DNA from: a candidate division WOR-3 bacterium
Lineage (GTDB): Bacteria > Hydrothermota > Tepidihabitantia > Tepidihabitantales > Tepidihabitantaceae
NCBI GenBank assembly: GCA_039801245.1
Contig: JBDRUF010000002.1
Coordinates: forward strand, 1 to 37,318
Length of the DNA: 37,318 nucleotides
Direction of reading: 5' to 3'
Position 1 is the first letter of the stretch. Every line of letters starts with the position of its first letter. Under the pieces are notes generated by a model. That model searched no databases. It saw nothing but the letters and a program-made list of their open reading frames with translations, and was not told the origin of the DNA. The position numbers were made by a program, and so were the translations under genes. Below are positions 23,633-30,251 of this stretch, in pieces.

Positions 23633-25855
23633 TTAATTCACCTTCACAAACCTTTTGATTGCATTCACCTTGCCGATTTTCAGCCGCAGGAAGTAAATTC
23701 CGCTCGGCAGATTCCACAGGTCCACCTGATACGATGTCTGACCGTTAGCTAATATCGCCTTTTTCAGGTCGTGGATAATTCTCCCGGAACGGTCGTAAAT
23801 CCCGCCGCTAATTGATTGCGCTTTAGGGGCATTAATCACAATGTTAACTATGCTGCGACAGGGGTTTGGTCCGATTTCAATATCCAACTCTCTGGAGCTG
23901 GTGTGTTTTTCAGGCTCAACGACGCCGGTGGGTGGGGTTTGGGCGAAGATGCCAGCGCCATTAGTGCCCGCAAAAACTGTGCGCGGTGCATCACTGCGGA
24001 ATCCTAAGCAAAGGATGTCGGTATTTGTCAGCCCTTCGTTAATCTGCTGCCAGTTTTCACCGCCATCGGTTGTGAGATAGATACCATTACCGGTTCCGGC
24101 ATAGATGATGTCATCATTGGTCTGGTCAAGGGCGATACATCTGACATTGGTAAAACTCCCTGTGCGCGTCCAGTTTTCACCGCCATCGGTTGACTTAAAA
24201 AGACCCTGACTGGTACCAGCATAAAAGAGTCCTGGTGTCAATTGCGAGGCGGCAAGACGGTAAATGATTCCCGTCAAACCGTTGCCGATGTGCTGCCAGG
24301 TTGCGCCCAAGTCGGTTGTCAACAGGAGGAGTTTGTAATTATAGGCAGAATCGCCGCCGATTAAAATCCGGGTGGAGTCAAACGGGTCAAACAGGATGGT
24401 GTTGGCGCGGGCAATTGAGTCAGGCAGGGTATCACGAATCCAGGTTGAGCCATTATCAGTTGAATAGGAGGTCTGAATCCTGTAGGCGCTGTTGATTGAG
24501 CCATAACCGCAGGAAAATATCAGTTCAGGGTTATGGGGCGAGATGGCAAGGTCGGCACCATCAATCAAATAGCTCTCAATCTGTGTCCAGACGGACCCGC
24601 CGTCTGTGCTCCTGAAGAGCTCGGCGTTGCCTCAACCCGAACCTTCCAAAGCCCAGACAGTCAGCGGGTCAGAGGGGTTGACCGCAAGGGCGCAGATGTT
24701 GCCGCAGGAAAGAAACTCTGGACATCTCTCCCAGGAGATGCCGTTGTCGGTAGACTTGAAGACCGCATTGTCAAGACATTCGGCATAGATTGTACCCTCG
24801 TCGTTGGCAAGGGCGATGGTCTTGATTTTGTTAAAGGAAAAGTTAGTGGTGATGTGCATCCAATTGTTGCCGTAATCGTTGGAAGCGAACATCCCTGCCT
24901 TGGTGCCGAGATAGACGGTAGCGGTATCAGTCGGGCTGGGGAGAAGGCAGAAATAAGGGGTCCCTAATAGTCCGTTACTGATTGTTGTCCAGGTCTTGCC
25001 CGTATCCTGACTGCGATAAACAGTGCTGGTGGTTGTCACATACATAACCGCAGGGTTCCCCTGGGCTGATGCCATTCGGTAAATACCAGTAATTGTTGCT
25101 GTCCTTGTCCAAGTTGCGCCCCGGTCGGTGGAACGATAGATGCCGCTGGAATAGGGGGTGACAAAGATGATGTTAGGGTCAATCGGGCTGATATAAATTG
25201 CATAAGGGTAATAACCATTAACACCCAGCCCAATCTCCTCCCAGGTTTCACCCCGGTCGGTTGAACGATAAACCATTGTAGCACCACTGCTGCGATAACC
25301 ACCGGCGTAAACTGTCACTGTATCAATCGGATCAATCGCCAATGAATAGCCATAAGATGTTGTAGAAGATGTGTCGCAGATGAAGAGATTCCAGGTGGTA
25401 CCGGCATCATCCGACCTCGCCACCGCAGTATGATAGACACTCCCCGAATAGTTATAACCAACCGCATAGATTACATCATAGTTCAAAGGATTGAACTCGA
25501 TATTGCGAAAGTAATTGTTAGTGGGGGTTGAAAGTCTTGTCCAAGATGAACCGCCATTGGTACTTTTATAGATATAGGAGCCCACCGGTGCATAGATGAT
25601 GTCTGGATTCTCGGGATGGACAAGAATGTCAATGCAATAACCGCTCAGGGAACCGGATGTTAACTCCCAGGTTCTGCCTTCATCAGTTGACTTGACAAGG
25701 CGCGTGGAGCTCGCATAGGGCGCAAAGTAGATTACTGGGGGGTCGGTTTGACTGATGGTGCCGGAATAAACCGGGCCCCCTTGAGGTCCAACTGGTGACC
25801 AAGTACAAAGGGCGGTTGTAACGGTAAGAATAAATACGGCAAGGAATCTATTCAT
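23633..25855 (-). pseudogene. secreted BNR-repeat (sialidase/VPS10-like) protein with sorting domain, interrupted by in-frame TGA
   Basis: 740 codons if the TGA at 24634-24632 is read through, without any frame change. A signal peptide (residues 1-20) is followed by many Asp-box/BNR repeats ('YRSTDRGETW', 'YRSQDTGKTW', 'LFRSTDGGSVW', 'YLTTDGGENW'), forming one or two beta-propellers. The last 80 residues are a type A sorting domain for type IX secretion ('IGPNPCRSIVNIVI', 'IYDRSGRII', 'NLPSGIYFLRLKIG'). The TGA falls in a variable loop between repeats. It could be a nonsense mutation, an assembly error, readthrough or, because tRNA-Sec is nearby, a recoded codon. AAAGGAG precedes ATG 25855. 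Confidence 0.75.
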
Positions 25856-25874: not shown

Positions 25875-25902
25875 ATAATAAAATTACATTAATCGAGGTC
25901 AA
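25875..25902 (-). promoter_or_regulatory. promoter of the BNR-repeat protein gene
   Basis: On the minus strand TTGACC (25902-25897), a 16-nt spacer and TATTAT (25880-25875). It leaves a short leader containing AAAGGAG before ATG 25855. Confidence 0.6.
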
Positions 25903-25925: not shown

Positions 25926-25954
25926 TTGACATTAAAGGCATTCGGCAGTAAAGT
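25926..25954 (+). promoter_or_regulatory. promoter of the beta-propeller gene and probably tRNA-Sec
   Basis: TTGACA (25926-25931), a 17-nt spacer and TAAAGT (25949-25954). Transcription from about 25961 gives a short leader with an SD site (AGAGGAG, 25978-25984). Confidence 0.55.
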
Positions 25955-25989: not shown

Positions 25990-27942
25990 ATGAAGGCATT
26001 TTGTCTGCTAACGGCATTCTTTTTGCTGATGCCTGAGGTAGTTTTTGGTCAGCTGGATACCGCTTGGTTGCGGTCAATTGATGGTGGCACAAGAAATGAG
26101 GATATCTTTTCAGATATGTATGTTGATGACTCGGGTAATGTCTATGTCACTGGGATGATTATCACCAGTGGGAATTATGGTGACATCTTCGTCCGGAAGT
26201 TCAGCCCAGACGGCGTGGTCTTGTGGAACACAGTATACGATGGCAGGGCACATGAGGATGACTCAGCTTCAGCGCTGGTGGTGGATAGTATTGGCAATGT
26301 TTATGTTTGTGGCTGGACGACAGATACATTGGCAGACAAGGATATGGTGACATTGAAATTATCCAACAGCGGGGAATTGGTCTGGGTGAGAAGTTGGTTC
26401 CGTATTTTTAACGGTAACGACGCCGCCCATGCAATTGCGCTTGACCGTTTAGGCAGAGTCATTGTTACTGGGTATTGTGCTGATAGTTTTAACAATATTG
26501 ATTACTGCACAATCTGCTACAATGCTGAAAACGGCGACACGGTTTGGGTGCGTTATTACAACCGGACACCAGAGAATGATGAAGATATTGCCTATTCAAT
26601 CTGTGTCGATGACTCCAATAATATTTACGTCACTGGGACCAGTTATGATGATGACACCGACTATGATATCGTTACCATCAAGTATCGACCGAATGGAACC
26701 CAGGCTTGGTTGCGCCGGAAGAATAACTGGCCCTGGTGGGGTGACGATTACGGGATGAAGGTTATTTTTGACCCGGTAACAAACACGATAATTGTTGGTG
26801 GTATCGTCTGGGATGATAATCAGGACTACAATTACTTCACGATGAAATATTCAAGAAATGGCGATTCGCTCTGGGCACGGACATACAATCGCTATCCGGC
26901 AAACAATGAGGACCTTCTCAGTGCGGTTGCAGTTGACCAGTCGGGCAATGTTTTTGTTACCGGAACAAGTCTTGATGATGTTACCGATTATGACATCGCA
27001 ACCGTTTCTTACAGCGCTATCGGCGGTGTGCGCTGGAGTCATCGTTTTGATGCCGACCATCTTGAAGACGGGGGTGCTGATTTGACTGTTGATTCCATCG
27101 GTCAGGTCTTGGTCATCGGCACTGCTGAAACTGACATCACCTGGCAGGACATTGCTTTTGTAAAATATGATACATCCGGCACACTCATTTATTCCTATCT
27201 CTGGGATAATCCGTTCAGCCACGACGAGGATTGGGGCTACAAAATCGCAGTTCAGCCTGACGGACAGATGATTTTTGCCGGAACAAGTTATAGCGATTCC
27301 ACCGATATTGACATCGTTGTCCTGAAGATGTTTCAGGTGCTTCACGATTTTGCTTTGAGCGAGCTGATCCTGCCGGAATCACTCTATATTGAGGATACGC
27401 TGAAACCAGAGGCGGTGGTCACCAATCTGTCAATTAATAAGGATAGTTGCTGGCTGCGGCTGACAGTTCAGCCCGGTGAGTACCGGGATTCTGTCTGGGT
27501 TGTGCTGACACCGGGAATGCGGCAACGGGTATCGTTCAGACCATTCCTTGCCGATACAGTTGGGCTACTAACAGTTTGCTCTTGGGTTAATCTTCCCGAA
27601 GACGAAAAAAGGGGAAATGATACCATCTGGAAGGAAGTAGTTGTCTGGCGGGAAAGTTCTGGAATAGCAGAAGAAAACATTACACTAAGGGTATTGAAAC
27701 TGACGGTCACACCTAACCCAGTAAGGGCATTCGGGCTGGTGAGATTGGATGGACCGGTTCCGCCAAAAACTTTCCTCAAGATATATGACCGGACTGGTGC
27801 CTTAGTTAAGGAGTTGGAAGTTGGTGGAAATGAAAAGTCACATTTCAAGTTCGATGTTCGTCCCCTCCCTGCCGGCGTTTATTTTTTGTGCCTTGATCAA
27901 CCAAGAGGTGGCATAACAAAGAAGGTTGTTGTGCAACATTAG
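25990..27942 (+). CDS. secreted beta-propeller (SBBP-repeat) protein with type IX sorting domain
   Basis: 650 aa from ATG 25990 (AGAGGAG 5 nt upstream; an in-frame ATG at 25975 is less likely). A signal peptide 'MKAFCLLTAFFLLMPEVVFG' is followed by about seven repeats of roughly 50-55 residues with the pattern 'DDSGNVYVTGTS.DD.TDYDIVTIKY...G...W', the SBBP-type propeller blade. A beta-rich linker (about 450-560) leads to a C-terminal sorting domain ('VTPNPVRAFGLVRL', 'KIYDRTGALVKELEV', 'LPAGVYFLCLDQ'). Likely a surface or released protein; ligand unknown. Its TAG stop is 10 nt from tRNA-Sec, which lacks an obvious promoter of its own. Confidence 0.85.
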   Translation: MKAFCLLTAFFLLMPEVVFGQLDTAWLRSIDGGTRNEDIFSDMYVDDSGNVYVTGMIITSGNYGDIFVRKFSPDGVVLWNTVYDGRAHEDDSASALVVDSIGNVYVCGWTTDTLADKDMVTLKLSNSGELVWVRSWFRIFNGNDAAHAIALDRLGRVIVTGYCADSFNNIDYCTICYNAENGDTVWVRYYNRTPENDEDIAYSICVDDSNNIYVTGTSYDDDTDYDIVTIKYRPNGTQAWLRRKNNWPWWGDDYGMKVIFDPVTNTIIVGGIVWDDNQDYNYFTMKYSRNGDSLWARTYNRYPANNEDLLSAVAVDQSGNVFVTGTSLDDVTDYDIATVSYSAIGGVRWSHRFDADHLEDGGADLTVDSIGQVLVIGTAETDITWQDIAFVKYDTSGTLIYSYLWDNPFSHDEDWGYKIAVQPDGQMIFAGTSYSDSTDIDIVVLKMFQVLHDFALSELILPESLYIEDTLKPEAVVTNLSINKDSCWLRLTVQPGEYRDSVWVVLTPGMRQRVSFRPFLADTVGLLTVCSWVNLPEDEKRGNDTIWKEVVVWRESSGIAEENITLRVLKLTVTPNPVRAFGLVRLDGPVPPKTFLKIYDRTGALVKELEVGGNEKSHFKFDVRPLPAGVYFLCLDQPRGGITKKVVVQH

Positions 27943-27952
27943 GTAGAGAAGC

Positions 27953-28047
27953 GGAGGCGGATGGGTGCTGGTGTGCCTGGCGGACTTCAAATCCGTATGG
28001 TCGGCGATTTGCTGACCGGTAGGTTCGATTCCTACCCGCCTCCGCCA
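27953..28047 (+). tRNA. selC: tRNA-Sec (selenocysteine, anticodon TCA)
   Basis: 95 nt with encoded CCA. Features that define selC: an 8-bp acceptor stem (GGAGGCGG with CCGCCTCC), anticodon loop CTTCAAA with TCA at 27987-27989, an extra-long variable arm (GGTCGGC-GATTT-GCTGACC, 7 bp with one wobble) and T-arm GTAGG-TTCGATT-CCTAC. The discriminator is G. A T-run follows (28050-28054). The host should therefore own SelA, SelB and SelD and at least one selenoprotein. It lies 10 nt after the propeller gene and 28 nt before the porin gene, so it is probably processed from a shared transcript. Confidence 0.95.
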
Positions 28048-28075: not shown

Positions 28076-29017
28076 ATGAAAAAAATTTTAATTGGAATTT
28101 TTTGGGTAACTATGGCATTGGGAGAGTTGAATTTAGTTCCTGGCCGTCTTAGCATTGATGGGCTTTTTGTTGGTTACGGGGTTATTTATCAGGGAAGAAG
28201 CAAAGGTTGGTCAAATAACGGTTTTGAATTCCGTTGGCGGCTCGGAACCTTGAGTTTAACAGGTGATATCAGGGAGAATACTACCGCTAAGATTGAGTTT
28301 GATTTTTCTCACCTTTCTCTCCGCGACCTTTACATCCACTTCAATTTGGGTAAAGGCTTTGCGTTACGAACAGGTCAGTTTGCTATACCGATGAGTTTTG
28401 AAGCGGAAACACCCGAAAGATACTTGAAGGTGGAGGAGTATTCAATTTTATACGGTATTATGAGTAAACCCAATACCATCCGTGATATCGGCATCTTATT
28501 GGACTGGCAGGCGCAAGTTGTGGGGTCCGCTTTGCGTCTTTTGACAGGGGTCATGAATGGGACCGGTCCGAACAGCACAGATAACAACACAAACAAGGAT
28601 GTTTTTACCCGGGTGGTCTTTACACCGGTAAACACAGCCAATTTGAGTCTCGGGGGCCGTGCTTATTGCGGCTGGGTTAATCCAGAGGCGGTGCGCTGGC
28701 TCGGATTTGCCGGGGAGGCGGTCTATCAGGAAAAATCCTTCACCATTGCCGCAGAAGTGGCTTATCGCCGTTATCAGAACATATCAACCTCTGCTGGCTT
28801 ATTAGAAGCAGCATACGAATTTGGGGTTATTGCACCAGCGATGAGGTTTGAAGGGATGCGTAGCACCGATGGTCAACAGCAATTCCGAGTCCTTTCTGCC
28901 TTAACAGTGAAACCGGTGGGTGATAATCTAAAGGTTATGATTGGCTATCAATACAACACGCTTAGGAAGATTTGGAGTTATCAAGGTTTAATAGTTCAAT
29001 TGGTAACCGGCTTTTAG
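28076..29017 (+). CDS. porin-like outer-membrane beta-barrel (OprO/OprP-like)
   Basis: 313 aa. A signal peptide (residues 1-17, 'MKKILIGIFWVTMALGE') precedes alternating strands. 'FEFRWRLGTLSLTGDIRENTTAKIEFDFSHLSLRDLYIHFNLGKGFALRTGQFAIPMSFEAETP' matches the phosphate-selective porin O/P pattern (phosphorus-limitation porin: an 'a.l.y......l.vG....PfglE' block). It ends with an aromatic C-terminal residue F, as outer-membrane barrels usually do. It is shorter than classic OprP, so specificity is not assigned. AAAGGGA lies just before ATG. Its TAG overlaps the convergent tsaB stop by 4 nt. Confidence 0.75.
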   Translation: MKKILIGIFWVTMALGELNLVPGRLSIDGLFVGYGVIYQGRSKGWSNNGFEFRWRLGTLSLTGDIRENTTAKIEFDFSHLSLRDLYIHFNLGKGFALRTGQFAIPMSFEAETPERYLKVEEYSILYGIMSKPNTIRDIGILLDWQAQVVGSALRLLTGVMNGTGPNSTDNNTNKDVFTRVVFTPVNTANLSLGGRAYCGWVNPEAVRWLGFAGEAVYQEKSFTIAAEVAYRRYQNISTSAGLLEAAYEFGVIAPAMRFEGMRSTDGQQQFRVLSALTVKPVGDNLKVMIGYQYNTLRKIWSYQGLIVQLVTGF

Positions 29018-29721
29018 GAATCGCTTTGCCGAGGCTCTCGTTTTAATTCCGCATCGGTCCGGCGGAGATAAGTTGGCTCAAGCTTGGTTATGTCATCCCC
29101 GCCTTCTTTTACTAACAAATCAATGCCAAGGCGAATGACAGCGACTGGAGAAGGAAAGGTAATTCCGATTCTGTCAATATGATACCCCGCCTTTTTCAAT
29201 ACTGGTTCTGCCAGCTCGGCACCATCACCAGCAATCACTAGACTATTGCTGGACAAATTTGTCTGACCAAGTAACCTGGCTAACCCTTCAGGACTGACAA
29301 CCTTTGGTGCAATAATTGCTTCCCCACCCTGATATAGCCCGGCGTAGACCTCGCCTTTGCGTGCATCAATCAGTGATAGGACCAATTGATTTCCCCTTTC
29401 CGTTTCCGCGGTAAAACTTAGTGCCCTTAGGGTATTGATACCCTTAACCAAAAGCCCTCGTGCCACTGCCAGACCCTTGGTGACACTTAATCCCACGCGC
29501 AACGAGGTGAACATTCCCGGTCCGATGGTCAGACAGATGCCGGTAAGTTCGTTCAGTTTTATTTCCGTCTGAGCAAAAGCGGTGTCAATTAGCGGCAAAA
29601 GACTCTCATTATGACTTACCTCGTTAGGGGTCCTTTTTTCCCAAACAACCCTTTTATCCTTAACCAATGCCAGTCCGGTTGTACGTCCGCTCGTTTCCAG
29701 CCCTAAAAAGGCGCCATTCAC
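29014..29721 (-). CDS. tsaB: tRNA threonylcarbamoyladenosine biosynthesis protein TsaB
   Basis: 235 aa. TsaB is the ASKHA-fold partner that activates TsaD in making t6A37 of ANN-decoding tRNAs. Diagnostic: 'FLGLETSGRTTGLAL' at the start, 'SHNESLLPLIDTAFAQ', 'LTGICLTIGPGMFTSLRVGLSVTKGLAVA' (usual GPGSFTGLRIG) and 'LIDARKGEVYAGLY'. It starts with GTG 29721, overlapping the NYN-domain gene by 4 nt. It is last in a run of minus-strand genes from the FG-GAP gene through birA, coaX and the NYN gene, each overlapping its neighbour or separated by 2 nt. Confidence 0.93.
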   Translation of the reverse strand: MNGAFLGLETSGRTTGLALVKDKRVVWEKRTPNEVSHNESLLPLIDTAFAQTEIKLNELTGICLTIGPGMFTSLRVGLSVTKGLAVARGLLVKGINTLRALSFTAETERGNQLVLSLIDARKGEVYAGLYQGGEAIIAPKVVSPEGLARLLGQTNLSSNSLVIAGDGAELAEPVLKKAGYHIDRIGITFPSPVAVIRLGIDLLVKEGGDDITKLEPTYLRRTDAELKREPRQSDS

Positions 29722-30251
29722 AATACCAATGGCTGTTCCTCTTCCCGCCCGGGAAACTGTGGTTTCACCGCACCCTCAATCTCATCCAGGTTAATGTACT
29801 CATCGCAGGCGCGAATGAGTTCCACCGAAGTATAGCCTCGTCCGAGACCGATTGTCACCACTCTTTTCCCCCTTTTGGAAAGCCAGTCAACCAAGGCGAC
29901 AAAGTCCCCATCACCGGTAACAAGCACAATCTCATCCAGCCAGTCGCTCATTGAGAGAATCTCAAGGGTGATTTCAATGTCCATATTTGCCTTGATGGTG
30001 CCATCCGGTCGCTCCCGCACCGGTTTAGCCACAACCCGATAACCCTGAAATGAAAGCGCATCGATCAGCCGCTGCCGCCGTTCGTCATCCCGGCGGTAGG
30101 GCACAAATGCGACAAACTTGCAGTTCTCCTTTTCTCTCGAGCCGGTGGTAATGATGTGCCGGATAACCGCATCATAACGAACCTCCTTGCCCTGCCGCTC
30201 AAATGTCTCTTGAACATTCTGAACATCAATAAATACACCGGTCTTAATCAT
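29718..30251 (-). CDS. NYN domain protein (LabA/DUF88-like nuclease)
   Basis: 177 aa. PIN-like NYN fold: 'GVFIDVQNVQETF' (first Asp and Asn), 'IKANMDIEITLEIL' (middle Asp) and 'DEIVLVTGDGDFVALVDWLSKRGKRVVTIG' (third acidic pair), then 'ELIRACDEYINLDEI'. All the acidic metal-site residues of the LabA/MARF1-type group are kept, so single-strand RNA cleavage is plausible but unproven. A strong AAGGAGG 4 nt before ATG 30251 lies inside the coaX end, and the genes overlap by ATGA. Confidence 0.88.
   Translation of the reverse strand: MIKTGVFIDVQNVQETFERQGKEVRYDAVIRHIITTGSREKENCKFVAFVPYRRDDERRQRLIDALSFQGYRVVAKPVRERPDGTIKANMDIEITLEILSMSDWLDEIVLVTGDGDFVALVDWLSKRGKRVVTIGLGRGYTSVELIRACDEYINLDEIEGAVKPQFPGREEEQPLVL

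Follow-up and report, generated by a model that had tools for sequence, protein, structure and literature searches.

Most selenoproteins of bacteria are redox enzymes of the cytoplasm or periplasm and have Cys counterparts. The maturation of a tRNA from an RNA that also encodes a protein is familiar from the tRNA–tufB type operons of E. coli. For the selenocysteine tRNA gene itself, the closest described arrangements are the selB–selC overlaps of Alpha- and Gammaproteobacteria, in which selC is nested in or overlaps selB and may be cut from an mRNA (PMC8124441; cited in PMC13188914). The envelope selenoproteins listed in one review are an ExtKL multihaem cytochrome, an MtrB/PioB-like barrel and a UshA-like protein (PMC13188914). 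Their Sec residue, like that of the protein family reported here, probably lies outside the cytoplasm, but there is no beta-propeller and no type IX cargo protein among them. A 2026 review of prokaryotic selenoproteins mentions no propeller, BNR or T9SS/type IX selenoprotein, the deep-Sep paper mentions no propeller or BNR selenoprotein, and in the open-licence literature we found no paper on beta-propeller, BNR, Vps10 or type IX selenoproteins, or on Sec in WOR-3.

The DNA analysed here, referred to as the window, is a stretch of 37,318 nucleotides from a candidate division WOR-3 bacterium (GenBank assembly GCA_039801245.1, contig JBDRUF010000002.1). It carries selC between a type IX cargo gene and a porin gene, about 2 kb from a gene for an exported beta-propeller protein that is interrupted by an in-frame UGA (Table 1). 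The best joint explanation, which we consider very likely, is that a working selC is carried in a cargo–selC–porin RNA next to a divergent gene for a surface Sec propeller equipped with a SECIS element, the conserved UGA being a selenocysteine codon and not the sign of a broken gene.

Table 1. Features of the selC locus and the adjoining propeller selenoprotein gene (window coordinates).
Feature	Position	Strand	Remarks
Selenoprotein gene, 740 aa, Sec at residue 408 (predicted)	23633..25855	-	Signal-peptide-like N-terminus, tandem Asp-box beta-propellers, T9SS C-terminal sorting domain
SECIS region (putative), UGA + two hairpins	24587..24634	-	Frozen synonymous sites, covariation, pattern search
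SECIS hairpin 2, CAGACGG-CGGGU-CCGUCUG	24606-24588	-	Covariation
SECIS hairpin 1, GCUC-UUCAG-GAGC	24620-24608	-	Covariation
In-frame UGA, codon 408, EGSG[U]GNAEL	24632..24634	-	Same column in 68 homologues
TTGACC-16-TATTAT promoter-like site, selenoprotein gene	25875..25902	-	In the 119-bp intergenic region
Promoter-like site TTGACA-17-TAAAGT	25926..25954	+	Ahead of the cargo gene; may serve the cargo–selC–porin unit
Type IX cargo gene, 655 aa	25975..27942	+	SBBP beta-propeller repeats and T9SS type A sorting domain
selC, tRNA-Sec(UCA)	27953..28047	+	ARAGORN and Rfam; CCA encoded
Phosphate-selective porin O/P-like gene	28076..29017	+	Pfam PF07396 (Porin_O_P), 36 bits, cut-off 20.9

The preliminary description had recognised the tRNA by its acceptor stem, anticodon loop and variable arm, and the sequence, ARAGORN and Rfam all bear this out. 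Read off the sequence, the acceptor stem has 8 bp (GGAGGCGG/CCGCCTCC), the anticodon loop is CTTCAAA with TCA as the anticodon, the variable arm is of the long type with 7 bp (GGTCGGC/GCTGACC), and GCCA is encoded at the 3' end. ARAGORN called tRNA-SeC(tca) at 27953-28047. The covariance-model check that had been suggested gave a match to RF01852 of 73.4 bits over the full model length (gathering score 47, E 2.2e-13), and no other match in the genome, which is 1.70 Mb in size and 97% complete, exceeds the cut-off; the next best reaches 42.7 bits. The relatives retrieved by an exact tRNA pattern search were all candidate division WOR-3 bacteria, and a tRNA-Sec match with E < 1e-10 was obtained in 51 of 100 relatives. 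As a molecule, this tRNA-Sec adds nothing beyond the known type.

The remaining decoding genes, among them selA and selB, whose absence would have refuted the preliminary reading, were all found above curated cut-offs: selA (569.7 bits, cut-off 267.9), selB (403.5 bits, cut-off 242.3) and selD (334.9 bits, cut-off 125), with selD directly 3' of selB. Two recognised selenoproteins are encoded as well, both with a hairpin downstream of the UGA. SelD itself contains an in-frame UGA (VTCAG[U]ASKL, motif CAG[U]ASK), and HdrA (L100, contig C63 of this genome, G000) has a single one (TGA at 1161, minus strand; TMDCAI[U]ILAPKM). The same single HdrA UGA occurs in 9 genomes of the family and is common to the genera g1, g2, g3, g5 and g7 (G012), and it is absent from the best HdrA matches of g4 and g6. 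Elsewhere in the genome, which was searched family by family for Sec genes, formate dehydrogenase alpha gave only matches below the cut-off, without stops, and the FlpD/MvhD and NiFe hydrogenase large-subunit genes that were found contain no UGA. The bacterial Sec-decoding trait is thus complete, with selA, selB, selD, selC and recognised selenoproteins, and 27953-28047 is its genuine selC.

The preliminary description placed selC 10 nt after the end of a type IX cargo gene, with a porin gene starting 28 nt downstream. This geometry is exact, from the cargo stop codon TAG (27940-27942) to the porin ATG (28076), and both domain assignments were confirmed, that of the cargo sorting domain by TIGR04183 (31.0 bits, cut-off 23). 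A cargo stop 9-10 nt before selC and a porin gene within ~30 nt after it are found in the window and in G001, G002, G003 and G009 (genera g1 and g2). The porin neighbour is kept in g1 and g2 and, more weakly, in g3 and family f2. Genera g5 and g7 have the same cargo gene with wider gaps of 49 and 70 nt before selC, and in g4 and g6 other genes adjoin selC. We rejected a UGA stop ahead of selC as a meaningful feature, the cargo stop being TAG, TGA or TAA depending on the genome. Near selC, an NYN-domain gene (29718-30251, minus strand) is 90-92% identical between the window and the other g1/g2 genomes, while its neighbours are only 42-68% identical across the same genomes; none was detected at the selC locus in other genera.

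The preliminary description called this an unusual way to make selC. This calls for some qualification, as selC nested in or overlapping selB has already been published (PMC8124441), and the placing of selC within or after a coding gene is a known principle. What is new is the partner gene. In the published overlaps the partner is selB; here selB lies on contig C27 and selC on C2, so that the two do not overlap, and the partner encodes a secreted protein with no relation to Sec decoding, a gap of 9-10 nt separating it from selC. The tRNA–tufB type operons likewise place a tRNA and a protein on one RNA, but in the present locus the tRNA is selC and it stands between two coding genes. Elsewhere among WOR-3, in another family, the selB stop of L015 (G065) lies 12 nt inside the tRNA-Sec (tRNA at 1501-1595), giving a selB–selC overlap of the kind published for Proteobacteria.

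A shared 119-bp region separates the selenoprotein gene from the divergent cargo–selC–porin unit, and each of its strands bears a promoter-like site. This divergent arrangement is common to the window, G003 and G009 (g2); G001 and G002 carry the Sec-protein gene at another place. An attractive reading of this arrangement is that the supply of selC may be coupled to the propeller selenoprotein. The chances are about even, however, that the proximity is fortuitous and that selC was placed there for unrelated reasons: only these three of the compared genomes have both genes side by side, yet the arrangement has been kept in two genera at ~60% protein identity.

How selC is expressed can be approached through its relatives. 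The preliminary description had seen no clear promoter of its own, and comparison with eight promoter-bearing relatives supports this. In eight relatives from the same GTDB family whose upstream sequence is available, selC is preceded at a distance of 6-17 nt by the end of a TTGACA-16/17-TAnnnT site; in g5 and g7 a TTGACA-16-TAnTAT promoter occupies the cargo–selC gap, and g4 and g6 have the same kind of promoter. On our promoter scale, all eight of these selC genes score 10.5; among the 368 gene ends that served as the null, 1% reach 10 or more. The score before selC is 0 to 8.5 in the window, its g1/g2 relatives and G004 (g3). Judged by the sigma-70 consensus, the best site within 90 nt of selC is at background level in the window and five other g1/g2/g3 genomes, and the window has no sigma-70-like site on the plus strand from 26679 to 28047. 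Every one of the eight genomes with the cargo gene instead has a TTGACA-17 site at that gene, ~2.0-2.1 kb before selC, and this is the only conserved promoter upstream of selC in the window and the g1/g2/g3 genomes.

The comparison shows that no promoter of its own can be recognised for selC in this genus and its sister genus, where it stands at a fixed 9-10 nt behind the cargo gene. Since its own promoter appears to be gone and the sole conserved promoter is that of the cargo gene, maturation of selC from the cargo–selC–porin transcript is likely, and the most economical reading is that selC travels as a passenger on the cargo–porin transcript. It would be transcribed from the cargo promoter as part of the cargo–selC–porin RNA, from which RNase P and 3' processing would free it. 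A tree of four neighbouring proteins groups g1 with g2 and does not resolve the other genera, and the selC promoter may have been lost once or twice. Here a tRNA gene seems to have lost its promoter and to rely on an unrelated mRNA.

A possible but rather unlikely alternative is that selC retains a promoter of its own that escapes the sigma-70 consensus, either one used by an alternative sigma factor or a degenerate site in the 3' end of the cargo gene. G001 and G002 do contain a candidate, TTGAAA-16-TATATT, inside the cargo gene 69 nt before selC, but this site is not kept in the window or in g2. Many selC genes of family f6, which belongs to the same class, also lack a consensus promoter, yet they do not lie directly behind a coding gene. 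Against a hidden promoter stands the fact that close relatives have an unmistakable TTGACA promoter at exactly that place. We therefore retain transcription from the cargo promoter as the preferred reading.

The sequences flanking selC show further features of their own. Bases -2 and -1 are GC in the window, G001-G004, G009 and G007, and are not GC in those selC genes of the family that have their own promoter. They could pair with G73-C74, which would extend the acceptor stem by two pairs and might affect RNase P cleavage. In family f6, where the tRNA-Sec has no consensus promoter, a strong hairpin ends ~2 nt before the 5' end of the tRNA (L017, L023, L025, L027, L028, L108, L109, L111, L112, L114, L118). 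Its arms differ between loci yet match, a second hairpin often precedes it, and similar units may repeat upstream; a search for a dispersed-repeat pattern of this leader gave no matches.

The preliminary description advised that in-frame TGA codons in this genome be checked, and one in the window indeed appears to be the Sec codon of an apparently undescribed protein family. The gene was found by a filtered scan for UGA in conserved frames; an unfiltered UGA/Cys-column scan yielded mostly noise from other frames. The open reading frames 24632-25855 and 23633-24568 (minus strand) form one frame split by the UGA alone, and an AAAGGAG Shine–Dalgarno-like sequence precedes the ATG. TGA ends 12 of the 30 window genes, so the genetic code is standard. 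The same UGA occurs in the genes of G003 and G009. In a search of 100 relatives, homologues were found in 34 genomes, nearly all close ones having exactly one TGA; 30 genomes have at least one UGA copy and some have several. In 68 homologues the UGA falls in one alignment column ([AF]LEGxG[U]GxAELxxST), and dN is well below dS on both sides of it in eight pairs of relatives. A tRNA-Sec was found in 24/30 genomes with the Sec-protein gene and in 27/70 without it (Fisher p 0.0002, uncorrected for relatedness); the six genomes that have the protein and no clear tRNA-Sec are all MAGs, 66-91% complete.

No Cys occupies the Sec column among 88 sequences, and the usual Sec/Cys argument is thus missing. 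The homologues without Sec mostly lack the loop, and two have Ser and one His in the column. Two other residues follow the UGA closely: Glu404 is present in 68/68 sequences with UGA and in 0/18 without it, and Cys384 in 64/68 and 1/18, respectively. Besides structural Gly, Trp and a few other repeat residues, the invariant positions are Glu404, Gly405, Gly407 and Sec408, and Cys384 is nearly invariant.

The RNA around the UGA is conserved beyond what the protein accounts for at its synonymous sites, which are nearly frozen. The DNA is almost fixed for 48 nt from the UGA in proteins that diverge down to ~30% identity. In the Asp-box that follows the UGA, AGC encodes Ser in 97% and GGG the second Gly in 82%; in the other Asp-boxes of these proteins the two codons are used in 11% and 14%. 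RNAalifold alone predicted a weak structure with only three hairpin pairs, and the two named hairpins were therefore tested directly. Counted from the UGA, their columns (15-18/24-27 and 29-35/41-47) are paired in 93.4% of cells, and sliding the partner lowers the pairing from 93% to 22-42%. Double changes occur in 8 of the 11 hairpin pairs, with covariation in both helices (shuffled mean 1.7; 0 of 500 shuffles reach 8). A search with the resulting pattern returned 36 matches in 24 of the 65 genomes of the class and none in the reversed control. This two-hairpin SECIS directly 3' of the UGA would direct Sec insertion at residue 408.

That the UGA is instead decoded as another amino acid, for example as Trp by suppression, is very improbable: read-through alone does not identify the residue and no Cys homologue was found, but the Sec machinery is complete, a SECIS-like element follows the codon directly, the 68 homologues have UGA and never Trp or another sense codon at this position, and Cys384 comes and goes together with it. 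Equally hard to credit is an ordinary stop, with halves that are separate genes or a downstream half that restarts internally at, for instance, the TTG found 22 codons after the UGA in the window, because the residues right after the UGA rank among the best conserved, the synonymous sites beyond it are frozen and the hairpins covary, and the downstream half would have an export domain without a signal peptide. We rejected the TTG restart, as no restart codon is conserved downstream of the UGA and the first in-frame start is scattered from 7 to 126 codons after it. A selenocysteine codon remains the preferred reading.

Pfam places Sortilin-Vps10/BNR repeats and a type IX sorting tail in the selenoprotein. 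The Por_Secre_tail match is 43.4 bits in the window protein (cut-off 27); among other family members, L155 reaches 24.5 bits, below the cut-off, and L196 has no match. The AlphaFold2 model of the read-through protein, built with 44 family members, has a mean pLDDT of 90.8. A Foldseek search with the model ranked the GH74 tandem propellers at the top (5fkq, 2cn3 and others; E 1.8e-26, TM-score ~0.60), and it shows the tandem seven-bladed propeller fold of that family. The likeness to GH74 xyloglucanases, which share the tandem Asp-box beta-propeller fold, is one of fold, at 16-18% sequence identity. To our knowledge, neither Sec nor a type IX tail is part of the GH74 family.

The selenoprotein is thus predicted to be a tandem beta-propeller that would be exported to the cell surface by the type IX route, and its EGxG[U]G loop, together with Cys384 and Glu404, may form a redox or a binding/ligand site there. 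Since the UGA stands ahead of the coding sequence for the second propeller and sorting domain, failed Sec insertion would leave a truncated fragment without the type IX export signal, and display of the propeller protein should therefore depend on selenium. Sec insertion may in this way be tied to export. A broader proposal, which we advance tentatively and rate somewhat below an even chance, is that WOR-3 bacteria possess a selenium-dependent surface system, in which type IX-exported, multi-copy Sec propellers would receive their export signal only if UGA is read as Sec, and in which selC of two genera would have lost its own promoter and be run from a surface-protein operon, which in some cases diverges from such a gene, the supply of tRNA following surface demand.

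Both SelD-Sec and HdrA-Sec, with their in-frame UGA and downstream hairpin, are known selenoproteins (PMC13188914). The propeller family differs from them in being surface-targeted, in having no Cys counterpart and in carrying Sec in an inserted loop instead of a UxxC/CxxU motif. None of the NCBIfam models identified it as a family of selenoproteins. It is apparently an undescribed, large, multi-copy family of surface-targeted selenoproteins that would operate within the known mechanism, and an invariant Sec in an inserted loop, accompanied by Cys and Glu, would represent a different use of selenium. A standard gene caller cuts each of these genes into two. Their SECIS offers a very well conserved natural element for study, and WOR-3 becomes a lineage whose use of selenium is accessible through sequence data. 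A second beta-propeller selenoprotein is encoded in the same genome (L198, G000:C18:28947-30950), with the motif EGKG[U]GSSELF.
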